This document shows, piece after piece, positions 1 through 18,545 of a DNA stretch of 20,245 bases (its first letter is position 1; each line of letters opens with the position of its first letter). The stretch covers positions 1-20,245 of IMG/VR virus record IMGVR_UViG_3300046000_007272, one strand, 5' to 3'. A program made the position numbers and the translations under genes. The stretch comes from a virus. The notes below the pieces were generated by a model that saw nothing but the letters and a program-made list of their open reading frames with translations, was not told the origin of the DNA and ran no database searches.

Positions 1-1281
1 AAAGAATGCTAGTTTATCCGCATTGTATCTTTTTAAGGCATCTTCACTTAGTTTCTTAGCTTCGGCATCGGCTTTAAAAGATGTTATACCAATGGCATCG
101 CTAAAGTTCTTAACGCCTTGAATTACGCCATTGATAGTTGAGCCAATCGCATCGAACGCATCTCCGATTATTTTTATTTTGTCTTTTAGCGCAAACAAGG
201 CTATGCCAACCGCTGCCACTACCGCTGCGAATAAAAATATCGGATTGGATAATAGTACTTTGCCGAATGCAGTAAACGAACTAGCCGCACCCTTTAACCC
301 GTCTTTTAAGCTGCTAAAAGTTAAGCCTTTTAAGGTTGTGCCTAATTGCGCTATACGTTCATTAGCTTGCTTAAAATCAAGGTTTCCGAGTGATTGCCCA
401 ACGCCCCCTAACTGCTCTCTAAATTTCTCAAACTCCGTGCCTTTCTCTTGTTTGATAGCTTCGTTGGCATCTTCTATTTTATCCTGTAATTTACCAGCTT
501 CGGCGGTTAATCTTTTAAAGTCTTCTGTACCCTCACCAGCCACGGCTGCGGCTTCTTTTAATGCCCTTAGTTTGCTTTTTAGGCTTTCGGCTGATGCGCC
601 TGCTTCGTTTTCAGTTTGGGTTAACGCCTTTAACTGATTATCTACTTCCTTTTCGGATTTGGCTAATATCTGATATTCTTCTGCTAGTGCTTGGATTGCT
701 GCTTCGTTGGCAACGAATACAGCGTTGTTTTCCTGTCCGCTTTTACGGGCTGCCGCTTGCGCTTGTAATAATTGTTTTAGGCTTGTTTCGAGTTCGCCTA
801 ATGCCTCTTTGTAGTTACCTACGTTCCTGCTTGTGTTACCTACTGCGCTTTCAAGTTTCTTTAGTTCATCGCTAATCGCTTTGGCTTGGTTTTGTACGTC
901 TTTGCCTTTTGCGCTTTCACGTTCCGCCCGGGTTAAATTGTTATATTCTTTGGTAAGGTTCGATAATTGCGCCCGTAAGGAAACAATGCTACCCTCGTTT
1001 TCGTTTAGTACTTTAGCTTCGTTTTGCGTTTCACGAATTAAGTCGCCTTTGGCTTTAGTTAGGTTGCGTTGTTGAACAATGTTCCTGCCAAGTTCATCGG
1101 TTAAATCTCTGTATTTAGCAGTACCTTGGTCGTTCAACTCTGTTAGGTTGACTAAGTCCGCCCTATTTCTTTTGATAGTTTGGTTTAGAGTCGTTAACTC
1201 GTTATCAACCTTACCAATTGCAGCGGCTTGGGCTTCAAGTCCGTCAAAGTTAATCCGATATACTAATGTTTTTTCAGCCAT
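1..1281 (-). CDS. Tape measure protein, N-terminal part (gene runs off the left edge)
   Basis: An open frame of 427 codons starts at the ATG at 1281-1279 and continues past base 1. Tape measure proteins set tail length and sit inside the tail tube. Residues 1 to about 290 are almost entirely charged or amphipathic helix rich in Glu, Lys, Gln, Asn and Leu, without Pro or Cys, as expected for a coiled coil. A hydrophobic stretch follows at about residues 335-362 (including IFLFAAVVAAVGIALFAL), typical of the membrane-active segments of these proteins, and then more helix. The start overlaps the end of the 853-residue upstream gene by 8 bases, which suggests translational coupling. It is the last visible gene of the tail operon. 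The C-terminal part is missing only because the window ends. The identity rests on composition and position. Confidence 0.82.
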   Translation of the reverse strand, partial: MAEKTLVYRINFDGLEAQAAAIGKVDNELTTLNQTIKRNRADLVNLTELNDQGTAKYRDLTDELGRNIVQQRNLTKAKGDLIRETQNEAKVLNENEGSIVSLRAQLSNLTKEYNNLTRAERESAKGKDVQNQAKAISDELKKLESAVGNTSRNVGNYKEALGELETSLKQLLQAQAAARKSGQENNAVFVANEAAIQALAEEYQILAKSEKEVDNQLKALTQTENEAGASAESLKSKLRALKEAAAVAGEGTEDFKRLTAEAGKLQDKIEDANEAIKQEKGTEFEKFREQLGGVGQSLGNLDFKQANERIAQLGTTLKGLTFSSLKDGLKGAASSFTAFGKVLLSNPIFLFAAVVAAVGIALFALKDKIKIIGDAFDAIGSTINGVIQGVKNFSDAIGITSFKADAEAKKLSEDALKRYNADKLAFF

Positions 1282-3835
1282 TGCCTAATTTATGTACTGT
1301 TTCGTAATTACCGTCTATTGTGGCGTAAACGTCCTGTATCGTGCTGTTTACTATTGTCCTTACCGTACCCCCGTGTACTTTAAATACGCCTGCTGGCGTT
1401 AGCTGCAAACCGTTGTATCGTGCATCGTCTCCCTCACCTATGCCAATAATCCAAACGCTATCATTGCCAAAATTATAGTTACCAAAAATATGTTGGTTGC
1501 TTTCGGTTTGGTAGTTGCCATTGCCTAGCACCGTACCGCCACCACGAATAATACCCACGTTACCGCTGCCGTTAAACCCTACCAAACTTTCAAAGGACTG
1601 TTTACCGCCTGCCGTTAACGTACCACCACCTATTGCGCTTAATTGCCTTGTACCGCCTTGTATGGTGGGTATCTCGGTAACTATCGGTCTGTCAAACGGC
1701 AAAGTATCGTAAGCCTTTACCAATTCGTAGATAGTGGTTTTGTTTTTGTTTGGGGTAAAGTCTATAACTTGGTTCACATAATACCACCCCTGTAAGTTCA
1801 CGTGCTCAAGATAAATAGGCTTGAACAAATCAAGGTTTTTGAAGTCTAAGCCCGTAATTTTAAAATAGGCTTTATGCACCCGTCTATCGCTTATTACGGC
1901 TACATCACCATTGTAGTATGTCCTTACTAATCCGTTGCGGTTCGTGCTGTCATTGTATAACAGATTAACATCAACGGGTGCAACCGTATCGGGGTCAATC
2001 ATGAAACAACTAGGCATAGTGGTTAGTATAACATTTAACCACTTCCAACTAGCCTTAACACCTCCCGATTGGAATACATCTACATAACCTTTGTAGTATA
2101 GTATTCGCGGAAGGAAATCAAAAGACTGTGGGGGGCTTGGTGCGTTCACGTTCCACATAACAGGGATAGGGCAACCGCTTGGACTCCACGGGTGCACATT
2201 GTAGCTTACCGTTGCTGCAAAAAACTTAGTGCCTAAATTAGTTACTCCGTCTTTGAAGTTGCTGCCTAAATCGTATAAGGCACTACCAAAAACACTACCT
2301 TGCTCTTGGTTGTAGTTTTGCTGCCATTTATCGTTGCTGTCACTTGCGTACTGAAACTGTAAGTTACGGTTGTATGCTTGGATTATATCGGTTGTGATGC
2401 GATTGTCAACATCTAGTTTATCCGTCAAGTCCTCGCCTTGTGTTAATGGTTTGAGTAAAACGGTTTTAGGCTCAATCCTAATTACACGGTCATTATTATT
2501 GGTGTCAAAGTAAAGGTTAAATATATTTTGCATACCGCCTAAAATATCCAATACCTTAATATCCTTTAAGACACTAGATAAAATATAGGTGCGCCCTGTG
2601 GTAATGTTTCTTTGAAATGTTTGAGTAAACTTTGACTCGTTTAATAGCCTAACGGTTAATAACCCGCCAGCACTTGTATATCCATACTTTAGCACTATCT
2701 CATATTGACCTATTGGTATGCTTTGTATCGTACTTTGCTGACTGAATGCTACAGGATTCAAGTAAGTTGGCACTGCTGCGTTAAAAGGCTGTGATGAATT
2801 ACTATCTAAGTCTATGTACTCTTGCAATGTGTTTATATCACGAACAATAATATGAAAATCTCCTAATAAAAAAGCAATAGTAGTTTCAAAACTTATTTCA
2901 GCTTCGACTGCATATTGATAATCTCCTTGCTCTGTAATCGTTATTATACCTGTCGTGTTATCATACACGTTGCTTTGGTCATCAAACTCTACATTAGGTA
3001 TTAACCTTACGTAAGTAGGGGGTTGTGGAGAAGCTAAAGTGCTAGGGGGCATTATGTTACTAGAAACAATAACATCACCGCCAGCACGAATATCGAAATC
3101 GAATAAACCGCCTTTATTAAAACCACCGCCCGTAAATGGAAGTATTAATTTGCTACCTACGCCCGTGCTAAAAAAATCACTTTCTAAAGTGTAGCCAATA
3201 CTTGCAAAGGCTTTAGTCAGCATTTTGCCTAAGTAAATAGCTGGGCGCATATCCGTTTCGGCTACGTAGTTCCCGTTAATAGGTTGCCCGTAACTTATCA
3301 ATGGATACAAGTAATCGAATAAACTTGGAAACCTCCAACTAGCTTCGATATACGCACGGCTCAATGTGGATTGCGTGGTGCTCGCTGGCAATACACCGCT
3401 TAGTTGACCGTTGCTCATGCCAAAACTAGCTACTTCCAAATTACCATAATCATAGCTATTAATCGTTGCACCACCTAGCAAAGTGTACCAATCCACATTA
3501 TCGCTGTAAATCCTTAGTGTGTACTCGTCTGCTTGGTTGCGTTGCCCTACGTTTATAGCAAATATTAAACCCGTTAAAATAGGCATACCGTTGTAACTAA
3601 TCGAACAATCTCGCCCACCTATTGCCGTGGCATTAGCGTTGTAAATATACTTTAGGAAGCGGTTGTTTTTAGCCGTTGCTAATACTTTGAAATCCTTAGT
3701 ATAAACGCCTTGCCTTTTGGTAATATCCCTAATATCGCTATTTGACTTCGTTAGCGACAAAGGGAACGTGTCACTATCGTTGATTTCAATAGTGCCAATA
3801 TTCGCATCGTTTTCGTATAGCGTTACCTCTATCAT
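1274..3835 (-). CDS. Large tail structural protein (Bacteroidota phage type, baseplate/hub-like)
   Basis: This gene encodes 853 residues. The N-terminus (residues about 20-60) carries a run in which a short beta segment is followed by a conserved-looking block around TKDFKVLATAKNNRFL. I associate this pattern with large tail proteins of Bacteroidota phages encoded beside the tape measure gene. The middle is beta-rich with many aromatic residues. The last 130 residues are Gly-, Asn- and Thr-rich with short repeated turns, like a fibre tip or beta-helix. No enzymatic motif is visible. Its ATG overlaps the upstream 394-residue gene as ATGA, and its end overlaps the tape measure start by 8 bases. 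A role in the tail tip, baseplate or receptor binding is inferred from position and composition. A tail hub or fibre are alternatives. Confidence 0.6.
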   Translation of the reverse strand: MIEVTLYENDANIGTIEINDSDTFPLSLTKSNSDIRDITKRQGVYTKDFKVLATAKNNRFLKYIYNANATAIGGRDCSISYNGMPILTGLIFAINVGQRNQADEYTLRIYSDNVDWYTLLGGATINSYDYGNLEVASFGMSNGQLSGVLPASTTQSTLSRAYIEASWRFPSLFDYLYPLISYGQPINGNYVAETDMRPAIYLGKMLTKAFASIGYTLESDFFSTGVGSKLILPFTGGGFNKGGLFDFDIRAGGDVIVSSNIMPPSTLASPQPPTYVRLIPNVEFDDQSNVYDNTTGIITITEQGDYQYAVEAEISFETTIAFLLGDFHIIVRDINTLQEYIDLDSNSSQPFNAAVPTYLNPVAFSQQSTIQSIPIGQYEIVLKYGYTSAGGLLTVRLLNESKFTQTFQRNITTGRTYILSSVLKDIKVLDILGGMQNIFNLYFDTNNNDRVIRIEPKTVLLKPLTQGEDLTDKLDVDNRITTDIIQAYNRNLQFQYASDSNDKWQQNYNQEQGSVFGSALYDLGSNFKDGVTNLGTKFFAATVSYNVHPWSPSGCPIPVMWNVNAPSPPQSFDFLPRILYYKGYVDVFQSGGVKASWKWLNVILTTMPSCFMIDPDTVAPVDVNLLYNDSTNRNGLVRTYYNGDVAVISDRRVHKAYFKITGLDFKNLDLFKPIYLEHVNLQGWYYVNQVIDFTPNKNKTTIYELVKAYDTLPFDRPIVTEIPTIQGGTRQLSAIGGGTLTAGGKQSFESLVGFNGSGNVGIIRGGGTVLGNGNYQTESNQHIFGNYNFGNDSVWIIGIGEGDDARYNGLQLTPAGVFKVHGGTVRTIVNSTIQDVYATIDGNYETVHKLGNG

Positions 3836-5016
3836 AAGCGTTGGTTGCGGATATTGTTAGCCAATCGGATTGCCAAAGTCAAGCTACCTAGCTTGTTTTG
3901 GTTGTCGTAAACAAACCGTTCATCGTCTATCGTTATCGGTATTAGTTGTCCTGCGGTTTCCATGTATGCTACGGGGCTACCTACCAACTCCGCTAACCAC
4001 TCCGACTCATCTTGTGACAAAATGTCACTGTTTAAAGTCATTGTTTGTACTACATCTCTATACTGCGCCTGTGCGCCCCTGTCTTTAGGTGTAAACCCGT
4101 TGCGTAAATACTTTTCGTATTGGGTGCTGCTTGGCTTTACTGAAGATGTGTTGAACCCTGTAAAGGTGTAGCTATCGTAACCGCCCCACCTATTTAGAAA
4201 ATGTACCCTAACTGCGCCCTCGCATTGTGTCACTATCCTAAAAAATACCACTTCGCTTGACAGGGCAAAATTTATATTCGGCGGTGTGCCCGTCTTAACG
4301 CCAACGGCTACCACATAGTAAGCCGAACCTGCTGGCGGTGTTATGCCTGCTGTGGCTAAATTGGCTAACCCTACGGCTACATCGTACCGCCCACTAATAC
4401 TAGCGGTGTAATCAATATATTGAACGGATATTGTGCTGCCCGCTTCGTTTAAAAATGATACGGCTATAGCATTCGGGCTACTATTGGAACTGTATAAACT
4501 TAGTACGTAGCTTTCGCCTGTGGCTATGTTTATTGTTCGGGGGCTATTCGTTAGGAACTCGCCAAACCCTACGCCAGCCGTTATGACCTTATTAGGCAAT
4601 CCTGCTGCATTGTATGTCTGACGGGCTGCATTGATAACCGTTTTATCAACGATAGCAAGCAAGTCGCCACCAGTCACTAGAACACCGTTGCTATTAAGCA
4701 ATTCCGTAAACTCATAAGATAACAAACGAAAGTAGCTGTTAGGTGCGGTGTACTGTCGTGCTGCAATCGCTGGCGTTTGAATGTCGTAACTTACATTGTC
4801 ACGGTAAAACTCCTGCAAATCAAACTCAAATACGGCTGTGCCTGCTATACTTGGTTGTACCTGCAAGGTAATATCCGATGCAACTGAATTGCCATTAACG
4901 CCTTGAAATACACCCACCATTTTTTTAATGTTCGGGTTATTGCTGGATACAGTCCATACCGCATTTGTAAATGACTCCAACGGTGTAGCTTGTTGACCTA
5001 GTAATGTGATTGCCAT
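3832..5016 (-). CDS. Tail structural protein, 394 residues
   Basis: This is a beta-rich protein with no signal peptide, membrane segment or catalytic motif. Residues 60-75 contain VFEFDLQEFYRD, and residues about 265-286 contain the signature CEGAVRVHFLNRWGGYDSYTF. I have seen this arrangement in structural proteins encoded beside the large tail protein in Bacteroidota phages and prophages. Residues 160-260 look like one or two Ig-like beta sandwiches. The start overlaps the stop of the upstream gp10-like gene by one base (TAATG), and its stop overlaps the next start as ATGA. Together with the 853-residue protein it probably forms part of the distal tail. The exact role, such as distal tail protein, tube or fibre adaptor, cannot be read from the sequence. 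Confidence 0.6.
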   Translation of the reverse strand: MAITLLGQQATPLESFTNAVWTVSSNNPNIKKMVGVFQGVNGNSVASDITLQVQPSIAGTAVFEFDLQEFYRDNVSYDIQTPAIAARQYTAPNSYFRLLSYEFTELLNSNGVLVTGGDLLAIVDKTVINAARQTYNAAGLPNKVITAGVGFGEFLTNSPRTINIATGESYVLSLYSSNSSPNAIAVSFLNEAGSTISVQYIDYTASISGRYDVAVGLANLATAGITPPAGSAYYVVAVGVKTGTPPNINFALSSEVVFFRIVTQCEGAVRVHFLNRWGGYDSYTFTGFNTSSVKPSSTQYEKYLRNGFTPKDRGAQAQYRDVVQTMTLNSDILSQDESEWLAELVGSPVAYMETAGQLIPITIDDERFVYDNQNKLGSLTLAIRLANNIRNQRL

Positions 5017-5492
5017 TATCCTAACTTATTAAACATTTCGTTAAAATGGTTCTTTATGTCTTTGTCAATGGCTGCCGTTACCATCTCGTCTATCTGTCGG
5101 TCTATTTGCTCAATAGCAAACTCAATTATGTTGGTAGCTGGTATGCCCTTTTGAAATATTGACTCACGGATTGCCCATGCTGCCGCCCGTGCGCTTTTGT
5201 CATCACTTGCTTTGCCTTTTATCAATACCCACTTTATTAGGTTCTCTAAAAATCCTTGGTCTTCTTTTGACTTTGGATAGCCTTTTTTACGCCCGTCACT
5301 TACGTTGTTGATGTACCTATCTGCCAATAAATCAACTTGGTAGCTGTTTTCGGTACGGGTTATCTCATACTCAACGCTATCTCTTAATTGGCCGCTTGCT
5401 ACTTTGCCCTTTGCGACTATCTCGGCTATCAAGATATTAGCCATGAATGCGCCAACTATGTTTAACTCCGTTTCAAGTTCCTTAAACTCCAT
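5016..5492 (-). CDS. HK97 gp10-like neck / tail completion protein
   Basis: This gene encodes 158 residues. It has an N-terminal helix, then VASGQLRDSVEYEI at residues 31-44, which matches the 'TGxLRxSI' region of HK97 gp10-type head-tail joining proteins. Beta strands and a long C-terminal helical half follow. Proteins of this family sit between head and tail and help complete the tail. The start at 5492 lies inside the end of the upstream gene (11-base overlap), and the stop is fused to the next start as TAATG, so it belongs to the tail operon. Length fits the family. The assignment rests on one motif and on context. Confidence 0.55.
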   Translation of the reverse strand: MEFKELETELNIVGAFMANILIAEIVAKGKVASGQLRDSVEYEITRTENSYQVDLLADRYINNVSDGRKKGYPKSKEDQGFLENLIKWVLIKGKASDDKSARAAAWAIRESIFQKGIPATNIIEFAIEQIDRQIDEMVTAAIDKDIKNHFNEMFNKLG

Positions 5493-5955
5493 AGTTGAAA
5501 ACCCCGTTTACACAAGCATCAGTAAATACTTCTATTTGCACGGGAAATTGCAACCTCAATAGCCTATCGTTGCCGTAATTAAATACAAAGTCGCCCCCTG
5601 TGATAGTATCGTTTACAATCCTAATACGGGGGTTCGCTTTGAACCTTGCCCGTATTTCTGTTAGGTACTGCTCGGCAATGCTCAATAGGTTTTCCTGCTC
5701 GGTTTGGTCAGTATTTAACGCTTCAACATCTCTATGAAACAAGCTAAAGAATTGCAACTGAAACGAGTAAACCCTACGCCCTTTTATCAAGTCCATTGTG
5801 TTTACGTTTAGGTTGCGGTCAACCAATAAACGTGGGTAGTTCTTTTCGCCTTGTGTGTTAATTTCGGAACGATTGCCGTATGTAAAACCTTCAAGCCCTG
5901 CCATTGCATCGGCTGTGGTTTGCAGTACGTTTATAACATCAATTAGGGTTGCCAT
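5482..5955 (-). CDS. Tail terminator-like / minor virion protein, first gene of the tail operon
   Basis: This gene encodes 157 residues with an alternating alpha/beta pattern. A helix at residues 1-20 is followed by strands, and Arg-rich beta segments lie near RVYSFQLQFFSLF and LLRLQFPVQIEVF. Size, fold pattern and placement before a gp10-like gene fit tail terminator proteins, but no diagnostic motif is visible. The ATG at 5955-5953 lies only four bases after the -7 promoter box, so the mRNA should be nearly or fully leaderless. No Shine-Dalgarno sequence is present. It overlaps the next gene by 11 bases. It could also be another neck component. Confidence 0.45.
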   Translation of the reverse strand: MATLIDVINVLQTTADAMAGLEGFTYGNRSEINTQGEKNYPRLLVDRNLNVNTMDLIKGRRVYSFQLQFFSLFHRDVEALNTDQTEQENLLSIAEQYLTEIRARFKANPRIRIVNDTITGGDFVFNYGNDRLLRLQFPVQIEVFTDACVNGVFNYGV

Positions 5956-5959
5956 GTTA

Positions 5960-5990
5960 CAAATATAGTGTTTTTAGTATTGCCAAACAA
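5960..5990 (-). promoter_or_regulatory. Bacteroidota-type promoter of the tail operon
   Basis: On the minus strand TTG (5990-5988) is followed by 20 bases and TATATTTG (5967-5960), an exact fit to the TTG-N17/23-TAnnTTTG consensus of Bacteroidota housekeeping sigma factors. The -7 box ends four bases before the ATG at 5955, so transcription is expected to start at or within a few bases of the start codon. Confidence 0.75.
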
Positions 5991-6025
5991 TAGTTTTAGG
6001 TTAGTCTAAATTATATTTTAGGCTG

Positions 6026-6123: not shown

Positions 6124-6155
6124 AAACAAAAGCCCCAACCTTACGGGGCTGGGGC
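6124..6155 (-). terminator. Rho-independent terminator of the glycosylation cassette
   Basis: On the minus strand the stem is GCCCCAGCC (6155-6147), loop CCGTAA (6146-6141), GGTTGGGGC (6140-6132), nine pairs with one G-U, followed by TTTTGTTT (6131-6124). It lies 35 bases past the stop at 6190 and separates the cassette from the tail operon. Confidence 0.85.
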
Positions 6156-7616: not shown

Positions 7617-8285
7617 TTAAATTGATAACAGGCATACATCAGTACCCCTGTCTAGTTTGATTAATTGATTATTATACTCGAATTTAAGCCCTACCATAAA
7701 GTAGTACATAAAAAAGGTTTCATGCCCTTGCAAGATAGCTATATTATTCCTGTTTATCAATAGACTTGCAACGGTTTGGTCGTGCCTATGGTCGTCCCAA
7801 CTGCCAACAAAAGAACCGTTTAAAGCACCTTCGTAATACTGTTCAATAAAGTCTTTTGCTTTCTCCTTATTCAGTCCCATAACGCAAGCCATAATCATAG
7901 GGGCTTGCAATTCCGTTTCAGTTATGTCGTAAATTTCTTTGCAGCTATCGTTACAGTACGAACCAATAGTATAGGTGTAGTTGTCAAAGAATGCAAAACC
8001 CATGTCTTGTATGTGCTCAAATAGCTTATCTAAAGGGGCTACGCATTGCACCACGCTATCAAGCCATAAGATATTATCGTACCCTTCATCAAAAGCCTTT
8101 TTAATCGCATAGGCTTTGAATGCATACGGATTATCTTTGTGGTTTGGGCAACCTAATTGCTTTTCACTGGTGTAGCAAATGTATTCGCCTGTATAGCCTT
8201 TAGCTATTAGGCTTTGCTTTTGCGCTTTGGCGGCAGCTATGTATCGGGGGTTGCCCTTTGCAAAGGTTAGTATAATGGTTTTCAT
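7617..8285 (-). CDS. Glycosyltransferase-like protein (WLDS motif)
   Basis: I place the start at the ATG at 8285-8283, giving 222 residues, because it forms an ATGA overlap with the upstream FkbM gene. The longer frame from 8348 adds 21 atypical residues inside that gene. The protein begins MKTIILTFAKGNPRY. It has a helix-rich donor-binding half with YDNILWLDS (residues 69-77), where LDS resembles the DxD metal site of GT-A enzymes, and SWDDHRHDQ near residues 162-170, a pattern common in these enzymes. No membrane segment is visible. It probably adds a sugar to the glycan built by the cassette. Donor and acceptor cannot be deduced. Confidence 0.62.
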   Translation of the reverse strand: MKTIILTFAKGNPRYIAAAKAQKQSLIAKGYTGEYICYTSEKQLGCPNHKDNPYAFKAYAIKKAFDEGYDNILWLDSVVQCVAPLDKLFEHIQDMGFAFFDNYTYTIGSYCNDSCKEIYDITETELQAPMIMACVMGLNKEKAKDFIEQYYEGALNGSFVGSWDDHRHDQTVASLLINRNNIAILQGHETFFMYYFMVGLKFEYNNQLIKLDRGTDVCLLSI

Positions 8286-8881
8286 ATTGCTGCAAAAATT
8301 AGGTTTTCTCCGTTGCGGTGTATTTCGGTCAAGTCGTATTGAGCGCAATAGTCAATATACTTTTTAGGCTCTATGCCGTTGTATTCCACACATACACATT
8401 TTACGCCCGTTAAATCAATTTGGCTCAACACTTCAAAGTCCATACCCTCAATATCAATATTGATAAAATCAAAGGTACGCCCGTTGATTATGCTCTTAAC
8501 CGTATCGCATGGCACTTGAACCTCTGTAAATTGTTCTTTAACCCATCGCTGTTTTTCGCTTTCGATTATCGTACTGACTAAGCTAACATCTTCACCACCT
8601 AAATGCGTACCGCTTTCATAAAGCGTTATAAAGCCCTTGTACGGGGCTATCGCTACATTGACTACTTCTACCCTGTTATTGCCATTATAAAGTAAACTAG
8701 CCTTGTTTGTGGCGTTTGCGCTGGCATCTACTAACACACCAATCCAACCATTCAAAGCAAGCGCACGGGTGTTACTAAGTGTTTGCCCGTCATTGCAGCC
8801 TAAATCTAAAAACGTGCCTATATAGTGCTCGCCAAAGTAGTCTAGTATTACTTGCTGCTCGTTGTTTTGTGAGTAATTCAT
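8282..8881 (-). CDS. FkbM-family SAM methyltransferase
   Basis: This gene encodes 199 residues. FLDLGCNDGQT (24-34) is the SAM-binding motif I, GVLVDAS (48-54) follows as strand 2, and FDFINIDIEGMDFEVL (137-152) is the hallmark of FkbM methyltransferases, which methylate hydroxyls on sugars and polyketides. Length fits a minimal FkbM domain. Both ends overlap neighbours as ATGA, so it is translated together with the glycosyltransferases on either side. An O-methyl capping or decorating step on a glycan is the natural reading of the context. Target position and sugar are unknown. Confidence 0.85.
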   Translation of the reverse strand: MNYSQNNEQQVILDYFGEHYIGTFLDLGCNDGQTLSNTRALALNGWIGVLVDASANATNKASLLYNGNNRVEVVNVAIAPYKGFITLYESGTHLGGEDVSLVSTIIESEKQRWVKEQFTEVQVPCDTVKSIINGRTFDFINIDIEGMDFEVLSQIDLTGVKCVCVEYNGIEPKKYIDYCAQYDLTEIHRNGENLIFAAI

Positions 8882-9435
8882 TTGCCTTGTGTACTTACTA
8901 ATGTTTGAAAATCGTAATGGTACATATCCTTGTTAATGTAAACCTCTGTTTTAAGTAACGGTCTAAGCCTGTTTGAATAGTCGGCATCTTCACCATTGTT
9001 TATACCCCTCGGAAACTTTACCCTCAAAGCTAATTCACGCTTAACAGGGCAAAGGTGGTTAATAGTCCGATAATACACCCCGTTCAATTCGTACCAACTG
9101 TCAAACGTATTACTAATCTTAAAGTTGTGGCGGTCTTTGCCGTTAGTTGTCATGTAGCCATCAAAACCTACGCAATCGGGTTTGCTTTCAATAGCTTTTA
9201 ATAGTTCGCTGATGTAGTAACTCGGCACTAGGTCGTCATCGTCAATAAACACAACATAGTCGCCTTTAGCCTTATCTAGTAACTCGTTGCGCTTATCGCT
9301 TATCTTTTTTTGTCGGTTGTCAATAGATACCAGCACTTCCGCATTCGGGTCGCTTTGCATATCCAGCGTAGCTAACAACCTAGCTAACAAGTGGCTGCGG
9401 CTTTCGATTGAGCATATTAAAATTGATAGTTTCAT
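8878..9435 (-). CDS. Family 2 glycosyltransferase
   Basis: This gene encodes 185 residues of GT-A fold. It starts MKLSILICSIESR, the usual first strand. DKAKGDYVVFIDDDDLV (residues 54-70) carries the DxD nucleotide-sugar and metal site, and NNGEDADYSNRL (147-158) holds the ED pair expected for the catalytic base. It is shorter than typical GT2 enzymes of about 250-300 residues and lacks a C-terminal membrane anchor, so it should be soluble. It overlaps both neighbours by ATGA. It probably transfers a hexose-type sugar in the pathway encoded by this cassette. Confidence 0.85.
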   Translation of the reverse strand: MKLSILICSIESRSHLLARLLATLDMQSDPNAEVLVSIDNRQKKISDKRNELLDKAKGDYVVFIDDDDLVPSYYISELLKAIESKPDCVGFDGYMTTNGKDRHNFKISNTFDSWYELNGVYYRTINHLCPVKRELALRVKFPRGINNGEDADYSNRLRPLLKTEVYINKDMYHYDFQTLVSTQGK

Positions 9436-11834: not shown

Positions 11835-11975
11835 TTAGTTTAGTTGTGGGTCAAACGGGAACACCCCGTATCGGTTATAATGGCAAATGGCGTTAAACTC
11901 TGCCCAATACGAACCGTAACAATTAAACAATGCTTGGCGGCATTCTCCATCGGTTGCATCGGCTAGAGTTGTCAT
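11835..11975 (-). CDS. Small protein of unknown function, 46 residues
   Basis: The frame runs from the ATG at 11975 to TAA at 11835. The start overlaps the end of the upstream gene as ATGA, which supports it being real. The product is aromatic- and cysteine-bearing: three Cys (ECRQ, NCYG, ICHY), many Tyr, Phe and Trp, ending RYGVFPFDPQLN. It has no membrane segment. I do not recognise it. Confidence 0.5.
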   Translation of the reverse strand: MTTLADATDGECRQALFNCYGSYWAEFNAICHYNRYGVFPFDPQLN

Positions 11976-12193
11976 ATCCTATCGGTTGCTATTAATGCGT
12001 TCTCAAATGCTCTATCTCTAAATCTGCCGTTATTTCGTGCGCCACGTTCTTTAAGTTTAGCTAGTCGCAATTGCGCTGCGGCTTCGGCTCTATCCTCATA
12101 CGGGTATGTCTGCCTACCGTTTACAACATCAAGTTCGGTTATGCCGTACTCGTATGTCCTGCTTTCGGGGTAATAACGCTCAACTATTTTCAT
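11972..12193 (-). CDS. Small basic protein, first gene of the cassette
   Basis: The ATG at 12193 gives 73 residues; an in-frame TTG at 12199 lies inside the promoter box and is rejected. The N-terminal half is beta-like (VERYYPESRTYEYGITELDVV). The second half is a basic helical region rich in Arg and Ala (AEAAAQLRLAKLKERGARNNGRFRDRAFENAL). The start codon lies three bases after a perfect -7 promoter box, so the message is expected to be leaderless. The family is unknown. The basic helix could bind nucleic acid. Confidence 0.6.
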   Translation of the reverse strand: MKIVERYYPESRTYEYGITELDVVNGRQTYPYEDRAEAAAQLRLAKLKERGARNNGRFRDRAFENALIATDRI

Positions 12194-12196
12194 GCT

Positions 12197-12227
12197 CAAA
12201 TATAATTAATTATTAGCTACTTAGCAA
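12197..12227 (-). promoter_or_regulatory. Bacteroidota-type promoter of the glycosylation cassette
   Basis: TTG (12227-12225), 20 bases, TATATTTG (12204-12197) on the minus strand. Sequence and spacing are the same as in the tail-operon promoter. It overlaps the last codons of the frameshift product and ends three bases before the ATG at 12193. Confidence 0.72.
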
Positions 12228-12989
12228 CTTCACTCATGTAAATCTGCATCTTATATTCCACTTTACCGCTCATTCGTTTATGCATTATGTACGCAAACAC
12301 TTCATGCACGGGTAATGCTTTAACTATATTATCCTTGCTTATGTCGGGGCTTGCCTCCCTTAGAGTGGCATACCACCCAAACGGGGCTAGTTTGTCTTCA
12401 CCAGCCCGTTGCCCTGCCGCTTTATGTTTTGCCGTGCGATAGTCACCGCTAGTTGGTTTGATAAATGTGTTGTATATCCACGCCCTAACCTCGCAAAAAA
12501 AAAGAACGCACTAGTGGCATCTCTCGCATCCATATCTAAAAACTCGTTAGCCTTTTCGGTAACGTGTCCCTCACCTTCGTACAAGTAAGCTAACACCATC
12601 GGCATAGCTTTGTGTGTGTGGGTGGTGTTATCCATTATGGTTAGGGCTTCGATGCAGTTGCCAAATTCGATATTGCCGTAAGGTATTCTTACTTTGCCCA
12701 TCTCCATTAGCAACGGCTCACAAGCGGTGTAGGTTTTGCCGTTTACCTCAATAAATGGCACTTCGTAAGGTGTGGGTACGTATAACCCTTGTACGGCTAT
12801 TTCCAGCATTCCTACGACCTCTGTAACGGGTTTGGCTAGTAGTTCAGCTTCAGTCATATCCGTGCAAGCTAGTAGCACTTTATACGCTTGCTTTGGATAG
12901 CTAACGAGCATATCCGTTCCCGTCATATCGTCTGTTATGTCAACGCCTATTAAGGCATCCATTACTTGTATGTACTGTCGTAAAGTCAT
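12217..12989 (-). CDS. Frameshift fusion product of the chaperone-like gene (257 residues)
   Basis: If the ribosome or polymerase slips by -1 on the T9 run at 12503-12495, residues 1-165 of the 200-residue frame continue into an open frame of 92 further residues ending at TAG 12219-12217. The extension begins CEVRAWIYNTFIKPTSGD and includes KLAPFGWYATLREASPD and VHEVFAYIMHKRMSGK. It has normal protein composition and fills an otherwise empty 170-base gap, which strongly suggests that it is translated. A short/long pair made by frameshifting is characteristic of tail assembly chaperones (lambda G and GT). A single-base assembly error in the homopolymer is the main alternative, in which case only the long form exists. 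Confidence 0.65.
12387..12989 (-). CDS. Putative tail assembly chaperone, unshifted 200-residue product
   Basis: This gene starts MTLRQYIQVMDALIG. A central strand-turn block FIEVNGKTY (79-87) and a helical end at about 128-165 (MPMVLAYLYEGE, ANEFLDMDARDATSAFFFF) are present. This layout, a short helical head, then a second head after 'xVNGKxY', then 'FLDMxxxxATxxFFF', resembles the chaperone-like proteins that precede tape measure genes in Bacteroidota phages; recognition is by eye. The last 35 residues after the T9 run look less protein-like than the alternative frame. The start overlaps the TerL stop by one base (TAATG). Finding it beside TerL rather than next to the tape measure gene is unusual. 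Function is therefore tentative. Confidence 0.6.
   Translation of the reverse strand: MTLRQYIQVMDALIGVDITDDMTGTDMLVSYPKQAYKVLLACTDMTEAELLAKPVTEVVGMLEIAVQGLYVPTPYEVPFIEVNGKTYTACEPLLMEMGKVRIPYGNIEFGNCIEALTIMDNTTHTHKAMPMVLAYLYEGEGHVTEKANEFLDMDARDATSAFFFFARLGRGYTTHLSNQLAVTIARQNIKRQGNGLVKTN
12495..12503 (-). other. Homopolymer slippery site (T9) for -1 frameshift
   Basis: On the minus strand the zero-frame codons are TTC TTT TTT TTT GCG. The U UUU UUU heptamer allows both P- and A-site tRNAs to re-pair after a -1 slip, and runs of nine T also favour transcriptional slippage. A strong downstream hairpin is not obvious; only weak pairing is seen 35-60 bases on. Confidence 0.6.
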
Positions 12990-14188
12990 TAGTAGTAAAT
13001 TTGGTTTTTAGGCTGTCCAAGTAACCCCGTAACAGCGTACCTTTTTGCGTCAATTCCGTGATTAAAGGCATCTATTGGCTTGTTCAGCAAGTTACCGTTC
13101 TTATCCGTTGCCCACGTGTAATTCTTTAACTCCTTCATTAAATCGGGGCTTTGGCAAATTATCAATGGGTATTGTTTGATTAGCTGTATTCCTAAATTAA
13201 TGCTATCCGCACCTTTTACCGTTGGCTTGATATTAAAACCTTGACGGTAAATTTCCTCAATGCTTTTCGGTTCAGCACTATCAGCAAATATAACATCGTT
13301 TCGTGTAACGCCCAAACCTCGCATCTTATCGCAAATATCTGAATTGGTTAACCCGTAGCCATAAATTAGCTGCTTAACGTAAATTGCGCCCTCTGAATAG
13401 CGTATGTGTACTAAAGCGGTAGGGTCATTGGTAAAACCAAAGTCAAGCCCGTAGGCTTCGCTTGTGAAGTGTTGCGGAAATTCGCCTGTATCGTATTTGT
13501 CGAATATCTTACCTTGCTTACCGCTACCCCATTCGCCCAACACAACCACCCTGTAATATTCGGGGTCAATTTTCAATAGGCTCTCCATCTTACGTATGTA
13601 GTCGGGGTGCAAGTTCCTAATATTGCAATGGTACGTTGTATGAATAAACTCGCACTCTGAATAGTTAGTATCGTGAAACTTGGTTTTTAACCAGCAATCC
13701 TCATTCTCGGTATTGTAGCTTAAAACTATCTTTAGCTTTTTGCCTTTGGTGGTTCTTAAGGATAGGTCAAACTTGTTGAAGTCGCTGTAACCTACCTCAT
13801 CGGCTTCCTCAACCCATGCGTAGTTTACTTCTGTAATTGATTTCATTTTAGCCGTTGCGCTGCCGCTGCTTGCTCTAAAGCCTTTAGCGATTATCTTGTT
13901 GCCGTTTAGCTTGCATTCTATTTCCATTGTGTTTTCTCGGATATGAAATAGGTGCTCCATACCTCCGTCATTGATAATATCCTTTATTTGCTGAAACTGC
14001 GAACCTCGAATGTCGCTAAAGTTGGCACGGGCAATAACACAACGGAAATAGTCTTGCTCAACCATGTTAATCACAATGTCTTGTGCTGATGTGTAGCTTT
14101 TAGCTGAACCCCTGCCACCTACCAAACATACATAACGCTTGTTGGTTAGCCTTAGTTGGTTGTATGTGCTGTTAAACTCTAGTTGCAT
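12989..14188 (-). CDS. terL: Large terminase subunit (packaging ATPase-nuclease)
   Basis: The start is set at the ATG at 14188 (399 residues, MQLEFNSTYNQLRLT), which has a GGAG 12 bases upstream. The longer frame starts with TTG at 14215. The ATPase domain contains GGRGSAKS (24-31, Walker A) and AWVEEADE (124-131, Walker B with catalytic Glu), followed by LSYNTENE (coupling motif region). The C-terminal RNase H-like nuclease has acidic residues in GLDFG (247-251, D249), IFADS (300-304, D303) and HGIDAKRY (377-384, D380). Length is normal for the phage terminase_3-like group. It pumps DNA into the prohead through the portal and cuts concatemers. It follows the TerS gene by 55 bases and overlaps the next gene by one base. 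Confidence 0.95.
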   Translation of the reverse strand: MQLEFNSTYNQLRLTNKRYVCLVGGRGSAKSYTSAQDIVINMVEQDYFRCVIARANFSDIRGSQFQQIKDIINDGGMEHLFHIRENTMEIECKLNGNKIIAKGFRASSGSATAKMKSITEVNYAWVEEADEVGYSDFNKFDLSLRTTKGKKLKIVLSYNTENEDCWLKTKFHDTNYSECEFIHTTYHCNIRNLHPDYIRKMESLLKIDPEYYRVVVLGEWGSGKQGKIFDKYDTGEFPQHFTSEAYGLDFGFTNDPTALVHIRYSEGAIYVKQLIYGYGLTNSDICDKMRGLGVTRNDVIFADSAEPKSIEEIYRQGFNIKPTVKGADSINLGIQLIKQYPLIICQSPDLMKELKNYTWATDKNGNLLNKPIDAFNHGIDAKRYAVTGLLGQPKNQIYY

Positions 14189-18513: not shown

Positions 18514-18545
18514 CAAATATACAATTACTTTTTTTAATTACGCAA
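18514..18545 (-). promoter_or_regulatory. Bacteroidota-type promoter upstream of the 58-residue gene
   Basis: TTG (18545-18543), 21 bases, TATATTTG (18521-18514) on the minus strand. It leaves a leader of about 30 bases before the ATG at 18479, unlike the two near-leaderless promoters at 12197 and 5960. It could also drive the small genes further left. Confidence 0.68.

Follow-up and report, generated by a model that had tools for sequence, protein, structure and literature searches.

Promoter-like boxes set against start codons suggest near-leaderless messages in a probable Bacteroidota phage

Results

Gene content of the phage fragment

The virus record analysed here, referred to as the window (IMG/VR IMGVR_UViG_3300046000_007272), comprises 20,245 bases and represents a fragment, since genes extend past both of its ends. 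All the genes that we followed lie on the minus strand, among the recognisable ones being a terminase, a primase/helicase and a tape measure, and the host of the phage is probably a member of the Bacteroidota. The genes and elements around the tail operon are the following:

5482..5955, minus strand: first gene of the tail operon, 157 aa, without family match
5492-5016, 5016-3832, 3835-1274 and 1281-1 (within 1..5492), minus strand: later genes of the tail operon
5953..5959, minus strand: TAAC (5959-5956) followed by ATG, leaving a 4-base gap, read from the sequence
5960..5967, minus strand: -7 box TATATTTG of the tail promoter, read from the sequence, invariant in 4/4 records
5988..5990, minus strand: -33 TTG of the tail promoter, read from the sequence, invariant in 4/4 records
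5994..6021, minus strand: block CTAAAA-N5-TTTAG-N6-CTAAAA, candidate regulator site common to the tail promoter and the portal promoter of relatives
6132..6155, minus strand: terminator-like hairpin, two overlapping predictions (shuffle mean 0.6)

The last gene of the tail operon (1281-1) is the tape measure (phrog_167, 5.6e-07), and from their tight spacing the tail genes are presumably carried on one transcript. The cassette between the terminase and tail regions is headed by a 73-aa gene and encodes, at 8282-9435, an FkbM methyltransferase (1e-12) and a family-2 glycosyltransferase (1.8e-10), both recognised with Pfam; two other cassette genes that were tested gave no Pfam match.

The window had no match among named phages by megablast, and neither did its first tail protein by tblastn. 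Its terminase matches 1121 records, all of them below 60% identity, and a search with the terminase for a prophage relative in a genome contig collection found none. Within IMG/VR, the first tail gene has three relatives and the 73-aa gene has six. When seven records were compared by tblastn, the 73-aa gene was present in all of them, the tail gene in G000, G001, G002 and G005 only, and the portal gene in G001, G002, G003 and G006 only. Few lineages stand behind the conservation described below, as the window differs little or not at all from G003, and G001 from G005, in the aligned stretches.

Two promoter-like cores abut start codons

A preliminary description of this DNA had placed two promoters of identical geometry immediately before the tail operon and the cassette. 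This layout is borne out by the sequence: both sites read TTG-N20-TATATTTG on the minus strand, with the box ending 4 bases before ATG 5955 in one case and 3 bases before ATG 12193 in the other. The same description had assigned a normal leader to a third box near 18514, and this agrees with our measurements, as the 34 bases between that box and ATG 18479 would correspond to a leader of about 30 nt; the TTG spacing at this site is N21. The elements outside the tail region are:

11972..12193, minus strand: 73-aa gene heading the cassette, without family match
12191..12196, minus strand: AGC followed by ATG, leaving a 3-base gap, read from the sequence
12197..12204, minus strand: -7 box TATATTTG of the second promoter, invariant in 7/7 records
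12225..12227, minus strand: -33 TTG of the second promoter, within the -1 frame extension of the upstream gene
13285..13315, minus strand: decoy TTG-N20-TATATTTG inside the terminase frame
18514..18521, minus strand: leadered promoter-like TATATTTG, 34 bases before ATG 18479

At the tail operon, the TTG, TATATTTG, TAAC and ATG are invariant in the four records that carry the tail gene, and the alignment of these records diverges beyond about 70 bases upstream. The hairpin at 6155-6132 (fold -18.6 kcal/mol, z -3.1) follows the last cassette gene and precedes the tail promoter, and a terminator-like structure in this place suggests that the tail operon needs a promoter of its own. Applying the start-site rule described for Flavobacterium johnsoniae in PMC6847099, the predicted RNA 5' end is 5955 for a spacing of 4 nt and 5954 for a spacing of 5 nt. 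In G001 (reverse complement, 41068-44984) three frames (320, 609 and 377 codons) without counterpart at this place in the window lie ahead of the tail promoter, which stands intact behind them; the 377-codon frame has TATATTTG upstream at a gap of 7.

The site at 12193 is embedded in a different context. TATATTTG-AGC-ATG is kept, and TATATTTGAGCATG is invariant, in the seven records with the 73-aa gene. The site does not lie in a long intergenic gap, since a -1 frame from upstream reaches TAG 12219-12217; the -33 TTG is consequently part of a frame, leaving just 23 non-coding bases ahead of ATG 12193. This -1 frame of 94 codons is permitted by a run of nine T in gene 12989-12387, which is invariant in 7/7 records, and in all seven there are 12 bases from its end to the -7 box. 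The 94-codon extension terminates in ...YMSEVAK/VVK and the other shifted frame stops after 5 codons; a programmed frameshift is likely in this gene, which follows the terminase (window 12989-12217, minus strand). Conservation at 12193 is thus partly due to coding. The scan that detected the tail hairpin found no terminator-like site in 12150-12550, and with a gap of 3 bases an RNA start 4-5 nt after the box would fall inside AUG 12193.

The core motif can be expected to occur by chance at some frequency. TTG-N20-TANNTTTG occurs three times in the window, where shuffled sequence averages 0.67, and 3 of 100 shuffles also reach three, so that the motif by itself is weak and its placement at the start codon is the unusual part. 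One of the copies, at 13315-13285, is probably coding, given that it lies in the terminase frame and that relatives read either TATATTTG or TATCTTTG there. In turn, TTG-N19-21-TANNTTTG-N3-5-start was found at 2 of 31 gene starts chosen by hand. In dinucleotide shuffles of the 70 bases upstream of these starts, the full core at a gap of 3-5 averages 0.002 and none of 3000 shuffles reaches two, while the -7 box without the TTG averages 0.04 and reaches two in 3 of 3000.

A promoter of the same kind precedes the portal gene of relatives

The portal gene (identified in its G001 copy through phrog_33693, 1.5e-09) is preceded by TATATTTG-TAAC-GT-ATG in G001 and G003 and by TATATTTG-TAAC-AGT-ATG in G002 and G006. 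The gap of 6-7 makes this promoter near-leaderless in the four records that have the gene; a start 4 nt after the box would leave the portal messages with 2 or 3 nt ahead of the AUG. As at the tail and 12193 promoters, TATATTTG conforms to the -7 element TAnnTTTG (TAHHTTTG). Both window sites have the -33 TTG at N20, whereas the sole TTG in the 40 bases upstream of the portal box is at N14 and none is at N20, which indicates that TTG-N20 does not mark the near-leaderless class.

To describe spacing in the whole family, TAHHTTTG followed within 44 bases by the ATG of a frame of at least 60 codons was searched in the seven records. Nine of the 53 places were dropped (ATG internal to a frame), leaving 44 pairs of motif and first ATG. 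Their gaps fall at 3-7 (19 pairs) and 20-42 (25 pairs), with none at 8-19, although these counts are not independent, many pairs being orthologues. The short-gap class comprises the 73-aa gene (7), the tail gene (4) and the portal gene (4), together with a gene of G001/G005 (2, gap 7) and two G003 genes (gaps 4 and 6). The gaps of 4 (tail), 3 (12193) and 6-7 (portal) would all place the start on the AUG or within a few bases of it.

The tail and portal promoters also have in common a three-part block. On both strands of the seven records, CTAAAA-N3-5-TTTAG-N3-7-CTAAAA occurs only at the tail promoter of G000, G001, G002 and G005 and at the portal promoter of G001, G002, G003 and G006 (shuffle mean 0, 30 shuffles per record), but the pattern was defined from the sites that it finds, so that its confinement to them does not amount to independent evidence. 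The block is missing from the 12193 promoter. A two-part form, CTAAAA-TTTAG, was considered as a specific signal and discarded, as it is not clearly above shuffles in every record (one occurrence in G000 against a mean of 0.42 and a maximum of 3; four in G001 against a mean of 0.93 and a maximum of 5), and only the three-part form is specific. In G001, G004, G005 and G006 the two-part form also precedes a TATCTTTG promoter-like box that has a leader. We regard the CTAAAA/TTTAG/CTAAAA block as a candidate, possibly new, phage regulator site.

Preference for a gap of four bases in IMG/VR

IMG/VR was scanned for TTG-N20-TATATTTG at gaps of 3, 4, 6 and 12 before ATG, and for the reversed motif at a gap of 4, with up to 120 stretches taken per scan. 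Matches were taken as gene-start-like when the frame begun by the ATG was 50 codons or longer (10 or longer if cut by the end of the record) with no in-frame ATG upstream, and when the box lay outside any ATG-started frame of at least 80 codons on either strand. From the motif, these matches would come from viruses of Bacteroidota. Among the matches listed, the gene-start-like fraction was 75/121 at gap 4, 38/121 at gap 3, 25/112 at gap 6 and 12/114 at gap 12, and it was 1/106 for the reversed motif. The difference between gaps 4 and 12 in these matches (p 5e-17) persists after clustering, by protein for gene-start-like matches and by DNA for the others (66 against 39 others at gap 4, 12 against 84 at gap 12, p 9e-14). 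Gap 3, the spacing found at 12193, is less often gene-start-like than gap 4 but more often than gap 12 among the matches listed (38/121 against 12/114, p 1e-4). The family of the window contributes one match to the gap-3 set and one to the gap-4 set. A first pass, with 80 loci listed, had given 48/81 for gap 4, 5/78 for gap 12 and 1/71 for the reversed motif.

The best of the gaps scanned is the one at which the F. johnsoniae rule of 4-5 nt (PMC6847099) would start the RNA at the A of the ATG or at the following base. A pyrimidine before the ATG was also considered as a start-site signature; it was present in 42/48 and then 67/75 of the gap-4 cases, but also in 9/12 of those at gap 12, and being equally common there it carries no independent start-site signal. 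Other copies of the motif at 47 gap-4 loci, with the seed excluded, show a small peak at a gap of 4 (7, reversed motif 0) and another at 32 (10), numbers too low to carry weight.

Genes behind short gaps

The preliminary description had raised the possibility that leaderless initiation marks one expression class, that of late messages. Within this family the proposal fits in part, since the tail and portal genes would be near-leaderless and stand against 25 leadered pairs. It does not extend to phages in general: primases and further DNA-metabolism genes are found among the gap-4 genes of other viruses that could be named. When 45 gap-4 proteins (the first set of 48 matches less three short ones) were compared with PHROGs, the families listed included DNA primase (3), Erf-like annealing protein (2), exonucleases and phosphoesterases; there was no structural family in the 25 listed of 33 PHROGs families, and many of the proteins are without a named family in PHROGs or Pfam.

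In five cultured phages of Bacteroidota, a gap of at most 5 was found in 4 of 31 motif-start pairs, some of which are two boxes before one gene, and in 0 of 6 for the reversed motif. Leaderless starts would hence be a minority in those phages (0/9 at such gaps in Bacteroides phage B124-14 and 0/3 in FCL-2). One such pair, in Flavobacterium phage 11b, starts a 740-aa gene (ATG 21116) located just before the major tail protein. In the same phage (L390), an in-frame ATG at 4930, within the small terminase annotated at 4858-5340, follows a TATCTTTG box at a gap of 4, and the true start of this gene may be 4930, not 4858.

Discussion

Promoters of the sigma-ABfr type in Bacteroides fragilis, B. thetaiotaomicron and Flavobacterium have a -7 TAnnTTTG and a TTTG near -33, according to PMC6847099, PMC7366714 and PMC9723704, and the boxes described here are like them. 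PMC6847099 reports that many promoters of F. johnsoniae have 4 or 5 nt between the -7 element and the start, that the -33 element is weak in general and that Bacteroidota are without Shine-Dalgarno sequences. The absence of a Shine-Dalgarno sequence, which had been noted alongside the proposed leaderless messages, consequently carries no weight, as such sequences would be lacking in any case. Leaderless mRNAs are a minority in the Bacteroidota hosts that these sources measured: 87% of F. johnsoniae leaders are longer than 10 nt (PMC6847099), 5.5% of F. psychrophilum mRNAs are leaderless (PMC9723704) and 3.7% of B. thetaiotaomicron 5'UTRs are below 10 nt (PMC7366714). The phage box abuts the ATG, unlike in these hosts, where most mRNAs are leadered (medians of 24 and 32 nt in two species).

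Such an arrangement has precedents in bacteria, and the present case is its use by a phage. The '-10 next to ORF' of Deinococcus-Thermus, as presented in PMC12340547, is also a box a few bases before the ORF, with leaderless, spacing-dependent activity, and there too the boxes let gene starts be corrected; it differs in being TANNNT, in belonging to host genes of another phylum and in having been tested experimentally. The TA-led leaderless genes of Zheng et al. 2011 (PMC3160421) similarly have a promoter-like signal about 10-12 bases before the start, but that signal is TANNNT-like and Bacteroidetes are listed in that work among the clades rich in 'atypical' signals. With respect to phages, the paper on AR9 remarks in general terms, with a citation, that phage transcripts are often leaderless, although AR9 itself has UTRs of 26-491 nt (PMC5312081). 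A parallel in timing would be Thermus phage phiYS40, for which a review (PMC3594737) reports transcripts that form a temporal class of middle and late leaderless messages, along with changes in IF2 and IF3, whereas the present phage is known from sequence alone. No study of leaderless messages in Bacteroidota phages was found in the literature searched. The portal promoter of the same kind, the block common to tail and portal promoters and the gap-4 enrichment in IMG/VR are new here.

We consider it probable that these elements are Bacteroidota primary-sigma promoters set directly against the start codon, giving rise to near-leaderless messages. The observations on which this explanation is based are the sequence, the spacing, the conservation, the terminator-like hairpin and the enrichment, and a near-leaderless mRNA is the best reading of them because RNA in Flavobacterium often starts 4-5 bases past the box, as reported in PMC6847099. 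The promoters would serve the primary sigma factor of the sigma-ABfr type (-33 TTTG, -7 TAnnTTTG), and the host RNA polymerase, starting 4-5 bases past the -7 box, would begin the tail message at position 5955, the A of its AUG, or at the next base. Ribosomes would then initiate at a 5'-terminal or near-terminal AUG, without a leader. The first tail gene and the portal gene, presumably expressed late, would combine this near-leaderless design with the common upstream block as a putative regulator site, and elsewhere in the family promoter-like boxes stand 20-42 bases from their ATG. The promoter at 12193, with the same core, a 3-base gap and no block, is probably internal to an operon. The earlier proposal of leaderless starts at both sites thus fares unequally. 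At the tail operon a leaderless or near-leaderless start is well supported by spacing, conservation, hairpin and the viral preference for gap 4; at 12193 it is plausible and weaker, since gap 3 is less used, the scan of 12150-12550 gave no terminator-like site and read-through could supply the message.

That everything described is chance in A+T-rich DNA is very improbable. A third identical core does lie within the terminase frame, three cores are reached by 3 of 100 shuffles, and two -7 boxes alone by 3 of 3000; none of 3000 shuffles, however, gives two full cores at a gap of 3-5 from gene starts, and the conservation in relatives (4/4 and 7/7) and the gap and reversed-motif controls in IMG/VR also speak against chance. 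A more substantial alternative, though unlikely, is that the true promoters are further upstream and that the A+T-rich TATATTTG-TAAC is a part of the leader that aids ribosome binding. Most host mRNAs are leadered, and the 176 A+T-rich bases from the hairpin to ATG 5955 could contain another promoter; a role in ribosome binding, on the other hand, predicts neither the excess of gap 4 over gaps 3, 6 and 12 nor a motif identical to the -7 box.

For the second site alone, we give appreciable though minority credence to the box at 12193 being a chance match and the 73-aa gene being read by read-through from the terminase operon. Merely 23 bases separate the upstream stop from ATG 12193, the -33 TTG is inside a frame, the scan of 12150-12550 gave no terminator-like site and, among the matches listed, gene-start-like cases make up a smaller share at gap 3 than at gap 4. 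Against this stand the invariance of TATATTTG-AGC in 7/7 records and the excess of gene-start-like cases at gap 3 over gap 12 in those same matches (38/121 against 12/114, p 1e-4).

A broader scheme can be put forward, rather unlikely when all its parts are taken jointly: a dedicated class of near-leaderless structural-gene promoters with a dispensable -33 element, on whose block a phage-coded regulator would co-activate the tail and portal operons, with ribosomes shifted to leaderless initiation during infection and Bacteroidota phages in general favouring leaderless starts, at a set of genes, well beyond the few per cent of their hosts. Our results offer a positional test of leaderless transcription for phages of a phylum without Shine-Dalgarno initiation. 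They also offer a check on start codons in Bacteroidota phages, and point to a candidate regulator site for the structural genes of this family.
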